41,244 nucleotides of DNA from Sulfurovum sp. (GTDB lineage: Bacteria > Campylobacterota > Campylobacteria > Campylobacterales > Sulfurovaceae): NCBI GenBank assembly GCA_012329065.1, contig JAAXPZ010000019.1, positions 1-41,244 of the forward strand, read 5' to 3'. The notes beneath the pieces were generated by a model. The model made no database searches, had not been told where the DNA came from, and saw only the letters and a list, made by a program, of their open reading frames with translations. The number at the start of each line of letters is the position of its first letter. Position 1 is the stretch's first letter. Positions 3,022-8,382 of the stretch are shown one piece after another. A program made the translations under genes and the position numbers.

Positions 3022-4422
3022 ATGATAAAGAAGCAGATGCTATTGGAGCTATTGGAACAGAGCGATAGAAAAAAAGTACTTATTTTAGGAAAAAAAGGAC
3101 TTTTTGATCACAAGGAAATCGGTCGTTTTTTCAAATTATATACTCTTGAGCTCACAGATGTGCCCTGTAGCGATACAGTAGCCATCATAGAGCCACCTAA
3201 GCTAAATCCTATGGAAGAGATGATGAGTGAAGAGGCATATGAGATGGGAATGCCAAGCTATAACCTTGTTGAACTAGAAGAACTAATAAGCAAAACAATA
3301 GATGATGATAGCTTGCTGATGGCCATTAGGCTTGGTAATGATCAAGATAGAATCATTAGGATGCTCGGTAATCCTCATATCTCTGATGAACTTTTTGTAA
3401 GATTGCTTCAAATTTATCGTTGGGATGAGGAGGAGGATGACAGTAAAGATGATCGCAATGTCATCTTGCATACTTTGCGTCGCTATGTCGACATCAAGCC
3501 AAACGAAGAAGATCTACTTCAGACTTATCTTACGCTCCGTAGACTTGCTACTGAAGCTATCGACCCCGCACTTTTGATGGCTTTGATAGGTTTTCATAAT
3601 TTTGAATTTTTGGTACGAGGCAAAGAGAAGGTGACCCTCAGAGAGACTATTGCCAGAAATAGATATATAGATAGTGCCGTAATCACAAAGCTACTCTCCC
3701 TAAGAGACAGGAGGGCAGATATTGCATTGGCTGGAAACCCTGCAGTTTCACTTGAGGTATTAAAAAAACTAATCCAAAAATCAGATAATAATTTACATAA
3801 GGCATTGGCTACTAACCCCAATATAGACAATATGATATTTAAGACATTGCTTGCTTGTCAAAGCACTACAGTAGAGATACTTTTGTTAAAGCAGCACATC
3901 AGTAGGGGTAGATATGATATGGTAGTATCTGCAGAGCTAGATGCTGATATTATGGCTACTATGGCTGCCAACGAGCAACTAGATAACAATGTACAAGAGT
4001 TGCTTGTGAAAAGTGATAATATACTACTGTTGGAATATTTAGCACTTAATGATACAATGCAATCAGAGACATTGATTGTGTTATACAAAAAAGAGATAAT
4101 AAGTATACATATGTGTTTGGCTAAAAACTATCAAACCCCCAAGGATCTACTTTTGTATCTCTACTTAAGATACAAGAATAATAAAGATATGTTAGCAGCT
4201 CTTGCATACAACTCATCGTTGCCTCAAAGCAAGCTAGTGGAGTTGTACGGGGTAGGCGATTTTGAGATTAACAAAGGACTTGCTACAAACAAGAACCTGC
4301 CAAGAGATTTGATAGAGTATCTCAAACTTGATCATAGGTTACAAAACCATCTTGCAGAAAACGAGGTACTTATCAAGGAATATGAAAAGGTATTCGATTA
4401 TGACGCTAGAGCAATAATTTAA
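3022..4422 (+). CDS. LRV/HEAT-like repeat protein of MoxR-VWA operon
   Basis: This 466-residue protein has no catalytic motif I recognise. From about residue 110 to the C-terminus it is built of degenerate helical repeats of the leucine-rich-variant kind, with the recurring pattern (A)LA-x-NP-x-(hydrophobic) followed by two helices. Examples are MLGNPHISDELFVRLL, DIALAGNPAVSLEVLKKL, KALATNPNIDNMIFKTLL and GLATNKNLPRDLIEYL. Such repeats usually form an alpha solenoid for protein binding. The first 110 residues are different and unassigned. It is followed after 15 bp by a MoxR-like ATPase and then a VWA protein, so it is probably an adaptor or substrate receptor of that complex. The ribosome-binding site before the ATG is weak. 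Function is inferred from context only. Confidence 0.75.
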   Translation: MIKKQMLLELLEQSDRKKVLILGKKGLFDHKEIGRFFKLYTLELTDVPCSDTVAIIEPPKLNPMEEMMSEEAYEMGMPSYNLVELEELISKTIDDDSLLMAIRLGNDQDRIIRMLGNPHISDELFVRLLQIYRWDEEEDDSKDDRNVILHTLRRYVDIKPNEEDLLQTYLTLRRLATEAIDPALLMALIGFHNFEFLVRGKEKVTLRETIARNRYIDSAVITKLLSLRDRRADIALAGNPAVSLEVLKKLIQKSDNNLHKALATNPNIDNMIFKTLLACQSTTVEILLLKQHISRGRYDMVVSAELDADIMATMAANEQLDNNVQELLVKSDNILLLEYLALNDTMQSETLIVLYKKEIISIHMCLAKNYQTPKDLLLYLYLRYKNNKDMLAALAYNSSLPQSKLVELYGVGDFEINKGLATNKNLPRDLIEYLKLDHRLQNHLAENEVLIKEYEKVFDYDARAII

Positions 4423-4437
4423 AAAGAGAGTGACTAT

Positions 4438-5442
4438 ATGAAATCATCAAATATATTAAAAGTTATTGACAAGTTGATTGACAGGAAGCTACCTGTGTTT
4501 ATCTGGGGAGCACCAGGGATTGGAAAGTCATCTATTGTCAAGCAGATAGCCCAAGAAAAGAGCTTGGAGTTTTTGGATCTCCGCCTTTCTCTGCTTGACC
4601 CTACTGATCTGAAGGGTATCCCGTTTTTCAATGCTGAGACCAAAGAAGGCGTATGGGCAAAACCTAGCTTTTTGCCAAGTGATCCTCAGAGTCGAGGTAT
4701 ATTGTTTCTAGATGAGATAAACACCGCACCACCAGCTGTGCAGGCATCAGCATACCAGCTTATCCTTGATCGAAAAGTAGGAGAATACGAGCTACCAAGC
4801 GGTTGGAGCATAGTAGCAGCAGGAAACCGTGAAAATGATAGAGGAGTAATCTACAAGATGCCCCCACCTCTGGCAAATAGATTTGTACATTTTGAGATGG
4901 AAGTGGACTTTGATGATTGGAAAGCATGGGCTTATGATGCAGAGCTAGAAAACTCTATCATAGCTTACTTGGCATATGATAAATCTATGCTCTTTACATT
5001 TGATCCTACATCCAATGAAAAATCATTTGCAACACCAAGAAGCTGGGAATATGTAGATAGTATAATAAAATCAAACATAGAGAGTGGTCTTTTGCTAGAC
5101 AGCATCACTGGTGCAGTAGGACGAGAAGCAGCAGTAGGGTATAGTGCCTTTAAAAATGTAATAGGTGCACTTCCTGATCTCGAAAAGATATTGGAGGGTA
5201 CTCTTGATAAGCTTGATGAAGATAACCCAAAAGTCTTGATGGCACTTTGTATAGGTCTTGTCAATGCGATAAAGGAAAATACAAATGATGAAACTATAAG
5301 TAATTTACTTTTGTTCTCTATGCAAATTCCTGGAGAGTTTGCTATAATGTTAGTTAAAGATTTACAATCTGTAGGTGTTGACCTTGAGCGATCTGTTAGT
5401 TGGAAAGAATGGGTAAAGAAGTTTGCTTACCTGCTTTCATAG
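4438..5442 (+). CDS. MoxR-like AAA+ ATPase
   Basis: The 334-residue protein is a single AAA+ module. Walker A is GAPGIGKSS (residues 24-32), Walker B is ILFLDEIN (88-95), and the sensor-1 Asn is in VAAGN (126-130). PPPLANRFVHFEME is the arginine-finger region typical of MoxR ATPases. The C-terminal 130 residues form the lid and a helical tail. MoxR proteins act as chaperone-like ATPases that work with a partner carrying a VWA domain, and that partner is the next gene, 12 bp downstream. The upstream LRV-repeat gene lies 15 bp before it. A purine-rich AAAGAGAG motif precedes the ATG. The client of the complex is unknown. Confidence 0.85.
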   Translation: MKSSNILKVIDKLIDRKLPVFIWGAPGIGKSSIVKQIAQEKSLEFLDLRLSLLDPTDLKGIPFFNAETKEGVWAKPSFLPSDPQSRGILFLDEINTAPPAVQASAYQLILDRKVGEYELPSGWSIVAAGNRENDRGVIYKMPPPLANRFVHFEMEVDFDDWKAWAYDAELENSIIAYLAYDKSMLFTFDPTSNEKSFATPRSWEYVDSIIKSNIESGLLLDSITGAVGREAAVGYSAFKNVIGALPDLEKILEGTLDKLDEDNPKVLMALCIGLVNAIKENTNDETISNLLLFSMQIPGEFAIMLVKDLQSVGVDLERSVSWKEWVKKFAYLLS

Positions 5443-5454
5443 AATTCATAAGTT

Positions 5455-6621
5455 ATGAAAACTAACGAAAAGATAGCCAAAGCAAAAGCAAAACTGATGC
5501 TGGAGCATCCATATATCGGTGCTATATCAACAACGCTAAAACTTGAAAATGATTCTAAATCTTTGACATTTAGTAGCGATGGTGTCAGATTGATATACAA
5601 TGATGAATATTTTGAAAAGATTCCAGTACATGAGATTGAGTTTGCTTTAGCCAATGGTGCGATACATGCGATACTAAAGCACCAAGAGAGAGTATCGGAT
5701 AGGGTAGGCAGGATTTGGCAGGCAGCCACTGACTTGGTTGTCAATGTCATGCTAGTCAAGAACGACTTTATTTTGCCCCCTTATGTCTATTATGATGAGC
5801 GATTTGATGGGATGTATGCTGAAGAGATATACGATGTGCTCAAGGATGAGATGATCAACAATCAGTCCCGTGATGAGGCAGAAGTACAAGAAGAAGATAC
5901 ACCTGAAAATAAAGAAAATAAAGAAACAAAGAGCAATAATCAGCAAAAAAACCAAGAGCAAGAACTGCATCCAGAGAGCCTGAACAAAGAAGAAGAGAAA
6001 ATCCAAGAAGAACTCAAGGAGATTTTTGAGCAAATATTTCAAAAATATAAGCGACAAGGAGACCTGCCAGAAGGTATAAAGTTTGTAGTACCAGAGCACT
6101 TTTCGCAGCAAATAGACTGGCGGGAGACTCTGTATAGGCATATTGCAGAGTTTGCCAAGAGCACATATTCGTTCTTTCCGCCTAATAAAAAGTATCTATA
6201 CCGTGGCGTATATTTGCCAAGCCTAAGTTCTGATCTACTTCGTATAGTCATAGCGATTGATACATCGGGATCTATAGATGAAAATCTGCTTTCTATCTTT
6301 TTGGGAGAAACAAGCTCCATAATGCAGAGTTATCCCAACTACGAGATAGATATCATAACCGCAGATGCCAAAGTACAGTCACATAGAGTTTTTTCACCTG
6401 GAGAAATGCTTGAGTATGAGCTGCAAGGTGCTGGAGGTACGGACTTTCGCCCTGTATTTGAGTATATAGACCAGCACATTGACTATCCTACTATTCTGCT
6501 GTATTTTACAGACGGCATGGGTATATTTCCCGAAAAAGAACCATATTATAACCTATTGTGGGTAATGCCAAGTGCAAAAGAAGTGCCATTTGGAGAGACT
6601 ATAATCATTGAAGAAAATTAA
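5455..6621 (+). CDS. DUF2201-type protein with VWA-like domain; HExxH site degenerate
   Basis: The 388-residue protein has an N-terminal DUF2201-like (putative metallopeptidase) part, a charged Glu/Lys/Gln-rich linker at about residues 140-195, and a C-terminal VWA-like domain. The VWA part has a complete metal-site set: DTSGS (269-273), Thr in GGTDF (329) and Asp in FTDGMG (353). In the N-terminal part the place where I expect HExxH reads NGAIH (67-71), followed by AILKH, so the first His and the Glu are missing. If the alignment is right, the peptidase-like half is probably not catalytic. It pairs with the MoxR ATPase upstream. Together with the repeat protein it forms a three-gene operon of unknown client. 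Confidence 0.8.
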   Translation: MKTNEKIAKAKAKLMLEHPYIGAISTTLKLENDSKSLTFSSDGVRLIYNDEYFEKIPVHEIEFALANGAIHAILKHQERVSDRVGRIWQAATDLVVNVMLVKNDFILPPYVYYDERFDGMYAEEIYDVLKDEMINNQSRDEAEVQEEDTPENKENKETKSNNQQKNQEQELHPESLNKEEEKIQEELKEIFEQIFQKYKRQGDLPEGIKFVVPEHFSQQIDWRETLYRHIAEFAKSTYSFFPPNKKYLYRGVYLPSLSSDLLRIVIAIDTSGSIDENLLSIFLGETSSIMQSYPNYEIDIITADAKVQSHRVFSPGEMLEYELQGAGGTDFRPVFEYIDQHIDYPTILLYFTDGMGIFPEKEPYYNLLWVMPSAKEVPFGETIIIEEN

Positions 6622-6746: not shown

Positions 6747-7079
6747 ATGATGCAACAATTAGATATGGCCTCAGATGAGTTCTTAACTGAACTGAAAAAG
6801 ACCAAGAAATTTACAGACAAAGTATGTAAGCAGTTTGGCTGGGAGTACCACCCTATGCATGATGTCAATGATGGAGTCCAGTTAGGACTAACTAGACATA
6901 AAATGCTCTACGGCAAAAGGTTTTGTCCCTGTTACATGGTAGATCCTGATGAGAGCAGACCAGGTAAATTCAAAAGTTCAGATAATCGTATCTGCCCCTG
7001 TCCCCAGGCAATCAAAGACGAAGTTCCCAATGAGGGTAAATGCCACTGTGGTATCTTCTGTACACCGATAGTGTCCTAA
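6747..7079 (+). CDS. Ferredoxin-thioredoxin reductase catalytic-domain protein, C-terminus rewritten by IS
   Basis: The 110-residue protein carries the cysteine motifs of the FTR catalytic beta chain: CPC (60-62), CPC (83-85), CHC (99-101) and one more Cys at 105. These would bind a 4Fe-4S cluster and form the redox-active disulfide. The spacing is wider than in plant-type FTR, as in free-standing bacterial versions. An AGGAG site precedes the ATG by 7 bp. The last three residues (IVS) and the stop are encoded inside the left inverted repeat of the IS256-family element at 7067-8382. Joining the two flanks at the 8-bp duplication restores CTPYVQANS as the ancestral ending. All cluster ligands are kept, so the protein may still work. 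Its reductant and target are not visible here. Confidence 0.8.
   Translation: MMQQLDMASDEFLTELKKTKKFTDKVCKQFGWEYHPMHDVNDGVQLGLTRHKMLYGKRFCPCYMVDPDESRPGKFKSSDNRICPCPQAIKDEVPNEGKCHCGIFCTPIVS
7059..7066 (+). repeat. Left target-site duplication of the IS256-family element
   Basis: TGTACACC lies directly left of the element and is repeated exactly at 8383-8390. Eight bases is the normal duplication length for this family. It falls in the Cys-Thr-Pro codons of the FTR-like gene. Confidence 0.9.
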
Positions 7080-8382
7080 AAAGTTCGCAATTTCACCAAT
7101 CTTCCTATTTCTAGACTACTTTTTGTAGCAACTCTTCATACTTGATCATCACCAATTCAAGCTTTTGTGGCTGTATATAGCTTCGTTCAACCTCCCATTC
7201 TTCAGTGTATTCCATCAGATAGCATGTTAGCAGCCGTATATAAGCATCTCTACTGGGAAATACACCCACCACTCTACTTCTGCGGCGTATCTCCCTGTTG
7301 AGTCGCTCCAGTACATTGGTGGAAGCTATACGTCTATGGTCAATATTGTCAAAGTGATAGAACTGCAAACTGTCTTCCAGTCCATCTTCAAGGCATACTA
7401 TAGCTTCGGGATACTTTTGACTGTACTCATCGATTATAAGATTGGACATAGCCATAGCACTCTTAAAATCAGGCTGCACCCATATCTGTTTCAGCCTTGA
7501 AGCAAACAGCTCCTTGCTTTTTGGAGAAACATAGGCTAAAATATTACGCATAAAGTGTACTTTGCATCGCTGACAGGAGCAGCCTGTGAGTTCATTTTTG
7601 ACTGCATTTTGTATGCCTTGGTGAGCGTCTGAAACTACCAGGGCACACTTTTTCAATCCTCTTGTTTTTAGCTTTTTGAAGAATGCTCTCCAGCTTTCAT
7701 TGCTTTCACTATAGAACGGCTCTATTGCTAATACTTCACGTTTACCGTCCATTCCTACACCATAGGCGATCATAATAGCAGTAGAGACAACACGACCATT
7801 GGATCGTATCTTTTCGTAAAGAGCATCTACCCATATAAAAGGATACTCGTTTTGAAGCGGTCTATTTCTGAATGCTTCTACTTGTTCATTGAGTCCCTTG
7901 TTTATCTGTGATACCTGTGATGCAGAGATACCATCTATACCCATCTCTTTGGCTACACGTTCTATCTTTCGTGTAGAGACTCCATTGATGTATGCTTCCT
8001 GGATGACAGACATAAGGGCTTGTTCTGCTCTTTTCTTTTCAGTGATAAAGAATGGGATATATCCGCCTTTGCGTAGCTTGGGTATCATCAGATACATTGT
8101 TCCCACTCTTGTATCGAAGCGTCTGGGTCTGTAGCCGCTGAAGTGGGTTTTTCTTTCATCACTATGCTCATTCTTATTTACACCTACCTTATTTGCTGCT
8201 TCTACTTCCATAAGCTGCTCTGTCATCCACTTGAGCATAGCCAGCATTGAATCTTCTTCCAAGATAAAGTCCGTCATTACCCTTTTAAACAATTCTCTTT
8301 CGTCAATTTTCATTTTATTCTCCAATATTTTCTATTGGAAGATTAGCATATTTGAAAATTGCGAACTTTATTTTACATTATC
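7067..8382 (-). mobile_element. IS256-family insertion sequence, complete
   Basis: The element is 1316 bp and is bounded by 8-bp duplications. Its ends start GATAGTGTCCTAAAAAGTTC on the left and, read inward from the right, GATAATGTAAAATAAAGTTC. About 22 of the first 28 bases agree, with AAGTTCGCAATTT identical, and an ATCTTCC block is also shared further in. It carries one transposase gene on the minus strand. The element sits inside the 3' end of the FTR-like gene. Perfect duplications and an intact transposase suggest a recent and possibly still mobile copy. Confidence 0.93.
7111..8313 (-). CDS. IS256-family (Mutator-type) transposase
   Basis: The DDE transposase of the element is about 400 residues, the normal length. 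The catalytic acids fit Asp in WVDALYEK (about 163), Asp in VVSDAHQGI (about 229) and Glu in NVLERLNREIRRRSRVVGVF (about 336). CSCQRCKVHFMRN between them is the C-x2-C-x-H-like block seen in the family. I place the start at the ATG at 8313 because a GGAG lies 6 bp before it; a TTG four codons upstream is also open. No frameshift or stop is present. The enzyme would act on the inverted repeats at 7067 and 8382. Confidence 0.95.
   Translation of the reverse strand: MKIDERELFKRVMTDFILEEDSMLAMLKWMTEQLMEVEAANKVGVNKNEHSDERKTHFSGYRPRRFDTRVGTMYLMIPKLRKGGYIPFFITEKKRAEQALMSVIQEAYINGVSTRKIERVAKEMGIDGISASQVSQINKGLNEQVEAFRNRPLQNEYPFIWVDALYEKIRSNGRVVSTAIMIAYGVGMDGKREVLAIEPFYSESNESWRAFFKKLKTRGLKKCALVVSDAHQGIQNAVKNELTGCSCQRCKVHFMRNILAYVSPKSKELFASRLKQIWVQPDFKSAMAMSNLIIDEYSQKYPEAIVCLEDGLEDSLQFYHFDNIDHRRIASTNVLERLNREIRRRSRVVGVFPSRDAYIRLLTCYLMEYTEEWEVERSYIQPQKLELVMIKYEELLQKVV

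Follow-up and report, generated by a model that had tools for sequence, protein, structure and literature searches.

This study concerns a stretch of 41,244 nucleotides (the window) from Sulfurovum sp., positions 1 to 41,244 of contig JAAXPZ010000019.1 in assembly GCA_012329065.1, and three genes that lie at positions 3022-6621 in it. In its 1.94 Mb assembly, which was rated 100% complete by the tool used, the window is contig 2. The three open reading frames (ORFs) are on the same strand with intergenic gaps of 15 and 12 bases, in agreement with an earlier note, made from the sequence, that had called them tightly spaced. They encode a protein of LRV repeats with a BRCT-like N-terminal domain (the BRCT-LRV protein), a MoxR-type AAA+ ATPase, and a DUF2201 protein ending in a VWA domain (Table 1). 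The nearest named relatives of the window VWA protein are Sulfurovum records.

Table 1. Features of the three-gene set in the window
Feature	Coordinates	Strand	Basis
BRCT-LRV protein, 466 amino acids, proposed substrate adaptor	3022..4422	+	ORF; LRV families; AlphaFold2 model; fold matches
N-terminal BRCT-like domain, residues 9-92	3046..3297	+	VIA, Foldseek, hhalign
Alpha solenoid of LRV repeats, about residues 95-445	3304..4356	+	Secondary structure of the model; 1lrv match
MoxR-type AAA+ ATPase, 334 amino acids	4438..5442	+	AAA_3; phrog_1297; motifs
Walker A of the MoxR ATPase, GAPGIGKSS	4507..4533	+	Motif
DUF2201 protein, 388 amino acids: metallopeptidase-like domain and C-terminal VWA domain	5455..6621	+	PF13203, PF09967
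Degenerate HExxH position, NGAIH, residues 67-71	5653..5667	+	Sequence and alignments
VWA domain with complete metal ion-dependent adhesion site (MIDAS; DTSGS, GGTD, FTDG)	6244..6609	+	PF09967, residues 264-385; VIA; alignment

The trio is a real co-inherited unit. Among 60 related genomes, the BRCT-LRV protein (E 1.2e-18 or lower) was found in 24, a close-type MoxR (at least 54% identity) in the same 24 and in none of the other 36, and a close-type VWA protein (E 1.6e-40 or lower) in 23 of the 24 and again in none of the other 36. The lone exception was G001, in which the contig ends beside MoxR. These counts leave out a weak partial BRCT-LRV match in G033, genomes with only a more distant MoxR (43-45%; G011, G055 and G056) and those with only a distant VWA protein (G011, G048, G055 and G056). 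The co-occurrence of LRV and MoxR gave a Fisher value of 2.8e-17, uncorrected for kinship. Five genera (g1, g5, g9, g10 and g11) were mixed for the presence of the trio, and the genes co-varied in each of them. The earlier note had stated that MoxR ATPases work with VWA partners, and the counts support this as a genetic partnership; the repeat gene, which according to the note would have spoken against the idea if not conserved with the other two, was co-retained with MoxR in all 24 genomes and with the VWA gene in 23. A second set comprised 200 genomes from the phylum, each with a completeness of 95% or more; in it, a whole or nearly whole LRV protein was found in 21 and a strong VWA match (E below 1e-100) in 23, including all 21 with the LRV protein; six genomes with short solenoid matches and four with weaker VWA matches were left out.

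Because the three genes lay within 5 kb of each other in only 10 of the 24 trio genomes, adjacency is insufficient to explain the co-occurrence. Two genes were together, with the third elsewhere or past a contig end, in 9 of the 24, and all three were apart in 5. The VWA gene of G026 was about 100 kb from the other two on one contig, and that of G007 was at least 0.5 Mb away along the main contig. Separate loci have been kept together, which argues for one function. The set also appears to have been exchanged. In G001, a genome of the window's genus, the trio lies in the same neighbourhood (alanine dehydrogenase 84% and oxidoreductase 75% identical), and its MoxR and LRV proteins are 57% and 28% identical to those of the window; the values for genus g4 are 78-81% and 46-51%. 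Both the MoxR tree (22 rows, with G048 and several trio genomes left out) and the LRV tree grouped the window copy with g4, joined in the LRV tree by g7, and G001 and G003 of the window's genus with G029 and g2, some forks having modest support. The simplest reading of these sequence comparisons, behind which no species tree stands, is at least one replacement or transfer of the trio as a unit.

The MoxR protein was recognised by the Pfam family AAA_3 (35.3 bits, cut-off 27) and matched the ATPase family phrog_1297 at 2.7e-100. The bpMoxR model gave 17.2 bits, under its cut-off of 27. Walker A, Walker B, the sensor 1 motif AAGN and the arginine motif LxNRF were kept in 18 of 18 aligned MoxR rows. 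By sequence, the closest solved relative was Midasin (6or5, 4.2e-10). Midasin/Rea1, a single giant eukaryotic chain, combines an AAA ring with a MIDAS domain and pulls on an assembly factor that is a repeat protein; its client belongs to ribosome assembly.

The DUF2201 protein scored over the cut-offs of DUF2201_N (PF13203, 114.8 bits, cut-off 23.2) and DUF2201 (PF09967, 86.2 bits, cut-off 26.4). The earlier note had seen a complete VWA metal site together with NGAIH at the HExxH position, and both were confirmed; no HExxH was found elsewhere in the protein when the translation was read by eye. The note had also asked for an alignment of the clade. In 84 aligned clade rows, which take in fragments, MoxR-VWA pairs lacking LRV and, because two collections were used, duplicates of some genomes, HExxH was present in none (3 rows were gapped), N stood at the first position in 72, E stood at the second position in no lettered row, and the last H was retained in 72. 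The MIDAS (DxSxS, T, D) was complete in all 84. More distant DUF2201 proteins of the phylum also had no HExxH (0/5; four keep both H but not E), while the motif was present in 10 of 15 relatives outside the phylum. The HExxH loss is thus common to the phylum proteins seen and furthest advanced in this clade. In the model of the DUF2201 protein, the VWA part matched VWA/I domains with VIA Z scores of 12-13.6, and the N-terminal part was barely covered by the fold search. Eight MoxR-VWA pairs without an adjacent LRV gene (L107, L109, L113, L117, L119, L120, L122 and L124), from Sulfuricurvum, Sulfurimonas-type and Aliarcobacter records, had the VWA-protein motif NCVMH (5/8), NAVMH (2/8) or NSVMH (1/8). 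They are perhaps a second paralogue type.

For the third protein, Pfam gave only LRV_2 at 15.1 bits, under the cut-off of 27, and two other weak matches in the window copy. Across the family, however, LRV_2 was matched by every one of the 24 members and LRV by 19 (E up to 1; best LRV E 1e-12). The AlphaFold2 model, built from an alignment with 23 relatives, had a mean predicted local distance difference test score (pLDDT) of 90.4, and its solenoid matched the LRV crystal structure 1lrv (VIA Z 10.1, root-mean-square deviation (rmsd) 8.0 over 215 residues, within residues 204-448); many other helical-repeat proteins scored like 1lrv in the same fold listing. A sequence search of the PDB at E up to 1 matched no LRV chain. 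The LRV identity given in the earlier note thus stands on the family members and the fold. Short LRV-type proteins of about 190-250 amino acids, whose match to the profile covers just the solenoid, were seen in G006, G053, G058, G082, G106, G177, G187 and G239, several of which are without the trio.

The N-terminal domain of this protein, which the earlier note had not mentioned, offers the best clue to the adaptor's binding partner. Residues 9-92 have the secondary structure order b1-a1-b2-b3-a2-b4-a3 in the model. By VIA, the domain matched the DNLJ chain of 9a6z (Z 9.6, rmsd 2.6, 77 residues), an integrative model judging by its title, the single BRCT of 7scy (Z 8.1, rmsd 3.4, 80 residues) and RFC1 in 2ebu (Z 7.5, rmsd 3.4, 78 residues). 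Foldseek matched the model to 2ebu with a probability of 1.00, yet at E 0.056, and gave no match at E 0.001. The second of two hhalign comparisons, of 51 N-termini with 22 cleaned ligase BRCT rows, spanned the domain and gave 34%, or 79% with query and target swapped; three control profiles, run in the first direction only, gave 0.7, 0.1 and 0.1%. We have good, but not final, confidence that the domain is BRCT-like. The hhalign alignment pairs the TG of ligase BRCTs with LG in this domain, and the lysine of their GSK with M68. The TG and the GSK lysine of BRCTs are tied to phosphate binding, so binding of phosphate by this domain is doubtful. At the start of BRCT helix 2, E65 is E or D in 49 of 52 rows.

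MoxR-VWA sets are known from several systems, and the trio was compared with them. In NorQ-NorD, the finger of the VWA protein was assigned to the MoxR pore and the MIDAS is required for client maturation (PMC9976466). The finger has been described in cryo-electron microscopy structures, and MoxR-VWA pairs are treated there as metal-insertion chaperones (PMC13036017). The trio resembles NorQ-NorD in that a MoxR protein, the predicted ring, is partnered by a protein whose VWA domain, with MIDAS, is C-terminal and is preceded by an N-terminal domain, whereas the available text of PMC9976466 makes no mention of a DUF2201 domain or a third BRCT-LRV protein. The trio differs also in that nitric oxide reductase is probably not its obligatory client, since the window genome has no NorB-class match. 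Conflict systems with a MoxR ATPase, a vWA protein and a third protein, of the VMAP, iSTAND, beta-propeller and FtsH classes (PMC7159879), share this three-part composition, but the words LRV and BRCT are absent from the available main text of that paper and no effector was found in the trio. Pfam scans of the third protein of the trio, which bear on the VMAP and iSTAND classes, returned LRV families and weak odd matches.

Relatives of the MoxR and VWA proteins are also found in mobile elements. Of 50,697 phage records, 810 had a MoxR-like match and 638 a VWA-like match, relatives of N4 gp24/gp25 among them, and VWA relatives were present in 81 of 72,556 plasmid records. The profiles of the MoxR and metallopeptidase-vWA pair of jumbo and N4-like phages (PHROG 1297 and 1314) matched at 2.7e-100 and 4.6e-85, and phages Pollock and phiFa have an annotated ATPase within 3 kb of the VWA match. 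The pair differs from the trio in that the window BRCT-LRV protein had no match in the phage collection; it had none in the plasmid collection either. The jumbo-phage pair, with a fused metallopeptidase domain, was predicted to act in structural-protein processing or virion assembly (PMC7824862), and N4 gp24 ATPase and gp25 vWFA were listed with function unknown (PMC2784036). In PHROG 1314 and in several records, the DUF2201-VWA proteins of phages carry the label HNH or homing endonuclease. This label is perhaps a propagated misannotation, because the bacterial relatives are peptidase-like and VWA proteins by Pfam. In gammaproteobacterial and similar MoxR-DUF2201 operons, the VWA protein is about 30% identical and adjoins MoxR, and the third gene is a different one. 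It encodes a protein of about 375 amino acids and follows MoxR-DUF2201 at nine loci (L136, L137, L139, L142, L145 and L149-L152). The L142 protein, the one tested, matched no Pfam family at E 0.01 and had no PADLOC match. No relation of this third gene to the BRCT-LRV protein was detected (hhalign 0.5%); its product is possibly the adaptor of that branch.

Neighbouring ORFs of at least 70 amino acids were clustered in 43 stretches (the window and L031-L072) and in 80 named loci. The earlier note had proposed a survey for a conserved fourth gene; the clustering gave clade-local neighbours only, namely a Pif1-like helicase and a response regulator in Sulfurimonas and Sulfuricurvum, and a MotA/MotB-like pair in Sulfurovum. 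At 20 of the 80 named loci, the VWA gene had the Pif1-like gene downstream of it. It was present in 45 of the 60 genomes, with 21 of the 24 trio genomes against 24 of the other 36, and was rejected as a partner because this pattern is not trio-specific. MotA/ExbB-like and OmpA/MotB-like genes were found near the VWA gene at L031:9428-11655, and similarly in L035, L073, L077, L079, L106 and L130. The L031 pair, the only one scanned, matched PADLOC ZorA2 (1.1e-19) and ZorB1 (2.2e-59). A ZorA-like gene was present in 35 of the 60 genomes (21/24 with the trio and 14/36 without; p 2e-4, uncorrected for kinship) and, within the window's family, in 19/20 against 9/17 (p 0.005). It was enriched, but it was not accepted as a fourth part, because trio-less members of g1 (one of two), g5, g9, g10 and g11 carry it.

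Candidate clients were sought among respiratory and related enzymes. A NorB-like match, the class being judged from bit score and ORF length, was found in 17 of the 24 trio genomes, or 18 if an ambiguous piece in G010 is taken, against 10 of the other 36 (Fisher 1.5e-3 or 5e-4, uncorrected for kinship). Two pieces in G031 resemble a split cbb3 oxidase; qNOR-like matches in G014 and G023, a third class of 545-565 amino acids and pieces in G046 were left out of the count. Within the window's family, the enrichment was borderline (14/20 against 6/17, p 0.05). All three genomes of g9 have NorB-like and ZorA-like matches, and only one has the trio; in g11, two trio genomes have no counted NorB-like match. 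NosZ (13/24 against 11/36, two of the 11 below the cut-off) and NifH (4/24 against 8/36) had no clear association with the trio. The only COX1-family match of the window genome scored like the main class, taken as cbb3 oxidase, and the genome had no NorB-like, nosZ or nifH match. Since it lacks all three, and the presence patterns differ, nitric-oxide reductase, nitrous-oxide reductase and nitrogenase are each unlikely as an obligatory client.

In the window, the trio is preceded by an alanine dehydrogenase gene on the opposite strand and genes for an FAD oxidoreductase and a LUD-domain protein. Directly after it, at 6747-7079, lies a gene for a ferredoxin-thioredoxin reductase beta-type protein (PF02943, 93.9 bits), of which no relative was found near the trio in the 43 clustered stretches. 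A Mutator-family (IS256-like) transposase follows at 7111-8325.

We consider it fairly probable that the trio is an ATP-driven machine for protein remodelling, in assembly or maturation, that combines an adaptor, a MoxR motor and a VWA protein. This reading starts from what was found by computation, namely the domains, the intact nucleoside triphosphatase (NTPase) and MIDAS motifs, the HExxH loss, the strict co-retention and the matching tree placements; from these we infer ring formation, a physical complex, the adaptor role and a pulling action. MoxR would form an AAA+ ring, presumably a hexamer. The VWA protein would be its fixed co-chaperone, docking to the ring and gripping an acidic residue of a partner through the MIDAS metal, and the dead peptidase-like domain would serve as a scaffold or platform and not as a protease, a role that the loss of the peptidase motif in the whole clade fits. 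The BRCT-LRV protein would be a dedicated adaptor, whose solenoid and BRCT domain may recognise the client. By analogy with NorQ-NorD, the DUF2201 protein may couple MoxR to this adaptor, and the adaptor may itself be gripped or pulled by the VWA domain, as in NorQ-NorD or Midasin. As a guess, the MIDAS ligand could be E65. We think it rather improbable that the trio is a bacterial analogue of Midasin, with the MIDAS gripping E65 and the motor pulling the BRCT-LRV protein, and a nucleoprotein or assembly factor bound to it, away from a large complex at a checkpoint. The client may be DNA-linked, to which the BRCT domain points, or a respiratory complex, to which the NorB enrichment points. The earlier note had supposed that the solenoid recognises a client that the ATPase remodels, with the dead peptidase fold as a scaffold. 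That interpretation gained from the co-inheritance, the intact NTPase and MIDAS motifs and the clade-wide motif loss, while the conflict-system context that the note mentioned found little support.

Several results weigh against the reading of the trio as a remodelling machine with a BRCT-bearing adaptor. The BRCT fold matches were taken from the full-length BRCT-LRV model and not from the N-terminal domain alone. Pfam BRCT was reached by only 2 of 21 members (best E 0.066, not over the cut-off), PF00533 was found in the window genome at one place only, on another contig and not in the trio protein, and the PDB sequence search gave five matches with no BRCT chain among them. The first hhalign comparison, with a ligase profile of 26 rows of which 4 were wrongly cut, gave 2.2%, with controls at 1.0, 0.6 and 0.1%. 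For the motor, Midasin is the one solved MoxR relative at E 0.001 and is matched over about 100 residues only, and the model of the VWA protein is moderate (pLDDT 74.5, predicted template modelling score 0.46). In the genome counts, the MoxR of G014 is a fragment (residues 1-142), and broken assemblies account for part of the scattering and blur the distances. The phylum also contains MoxR-VWA pairs that have no LRV gene next to them, and in G108 and G167 a strong VWA match is accompanied by no LRV protein; because of these, not every MoxR-VWA pair needs a BRCT-LRV adaptor.

BRCT domains serve mostly in DNA transactions, and the trio could accordingly be a genome-maintenance machine, in which the MoxR-VWA motor is recruited through the BRCT domain to DNA, to a ligase-like or repair complex or to a chromosome-bound protein, to strip or remodel it. 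The nearness of the fold to ligase, RFC1 and single-BRCT entries and the Pif1-like gene downstream of the VWA gene speak for it. That gene, however, is not trio-specific, the LG and M68 substitutions leave phosphate binding doubtful, and BRCT domains serve also as plain protein-protein modules; we regard this possibility as unlikely. A maturation chaperone for a respiratory metalloenzyme, replacing NorQ-NorD in denitrifying campylobacterotes, would agree with the enrichment of NorB-like matches in trio genomes and with the metal-insertion role of known MoxR-VWA pairs (PMC13036017). We doubt it, since the window genome has the trio without a NorB-like, nosZ or nifH match, the enrichment within the family is borderline, and NosZ and nifH had no clear association.

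The patchy presence within genera, the apparent horizontal exchange and the ZorA/ZorB-like pair that follows the VWA gene in some Sulfurovum loci, with the uncorrected enrichment of the ZorA-like gene, would suit a ternary MoxR-VWA conflict system, anti-phage or other, of the sort described in PMC7159879. This reading found little support and seems quite improbable to us. PADLOC gave no match for the repeat protein, weak ones for MoxR (best PDC-S01, 1.7e-4) and a marginal one for the VWA protein (E 0.24); bpMoxR was under its cut-off, the trio showed no recognised effector domain, its genes are in many cases scattered, the window LRV protein was unmatched in the plasmid and phage collections, and the ZorA-like gene also occurs in trio-less members of all five mixed genera. 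For the neighbours, the defence check was the clustering and not a one-by-one scan of defence families. That the trio acts as an ATP-dependent protease, its DUF2201 domain having remained a peptidase with an atypical site, is hardly credible. Most clade rows do keep the final H of the motif, and a MoxR-vWA pair with a fused metallopeptidase was predicted in jumbo phages (PMC7824862), but no clade row has HExxH, N mostly takes its first position, and E never stands at the second where a letter is present.

As a MoxR-VWA chaperone, the remodelling machine that we favour belongs to a kind of system that is already known. In the literature searched, we found no description of this variant, with a BRCT-LRV adaptor, a dead peptidase-like platform and co-retained scattered genes. 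There was no report of a BRCT-like domain in any MoxR system among the literature matches listed, nor in the available text of PMC7159879. The search gave no paper pairing MoxR with Sulfurovum. Widespread as MoxR-VWA pairs are, the client is, to our knowledge, known for only a few of them, and the DUF2201 branch, a word that occurs in four papers of the literature searched, has hardly been studied. The trio would tie a dedicated BRCT-bearing adaptor to a MoxR-VWA pair through strict co-retention, and it provides three defined proteins with which to attempt reconstitution and fish for the client, as well as a natural case in which a peptidase-like domain has lost its active site and yet been retained.

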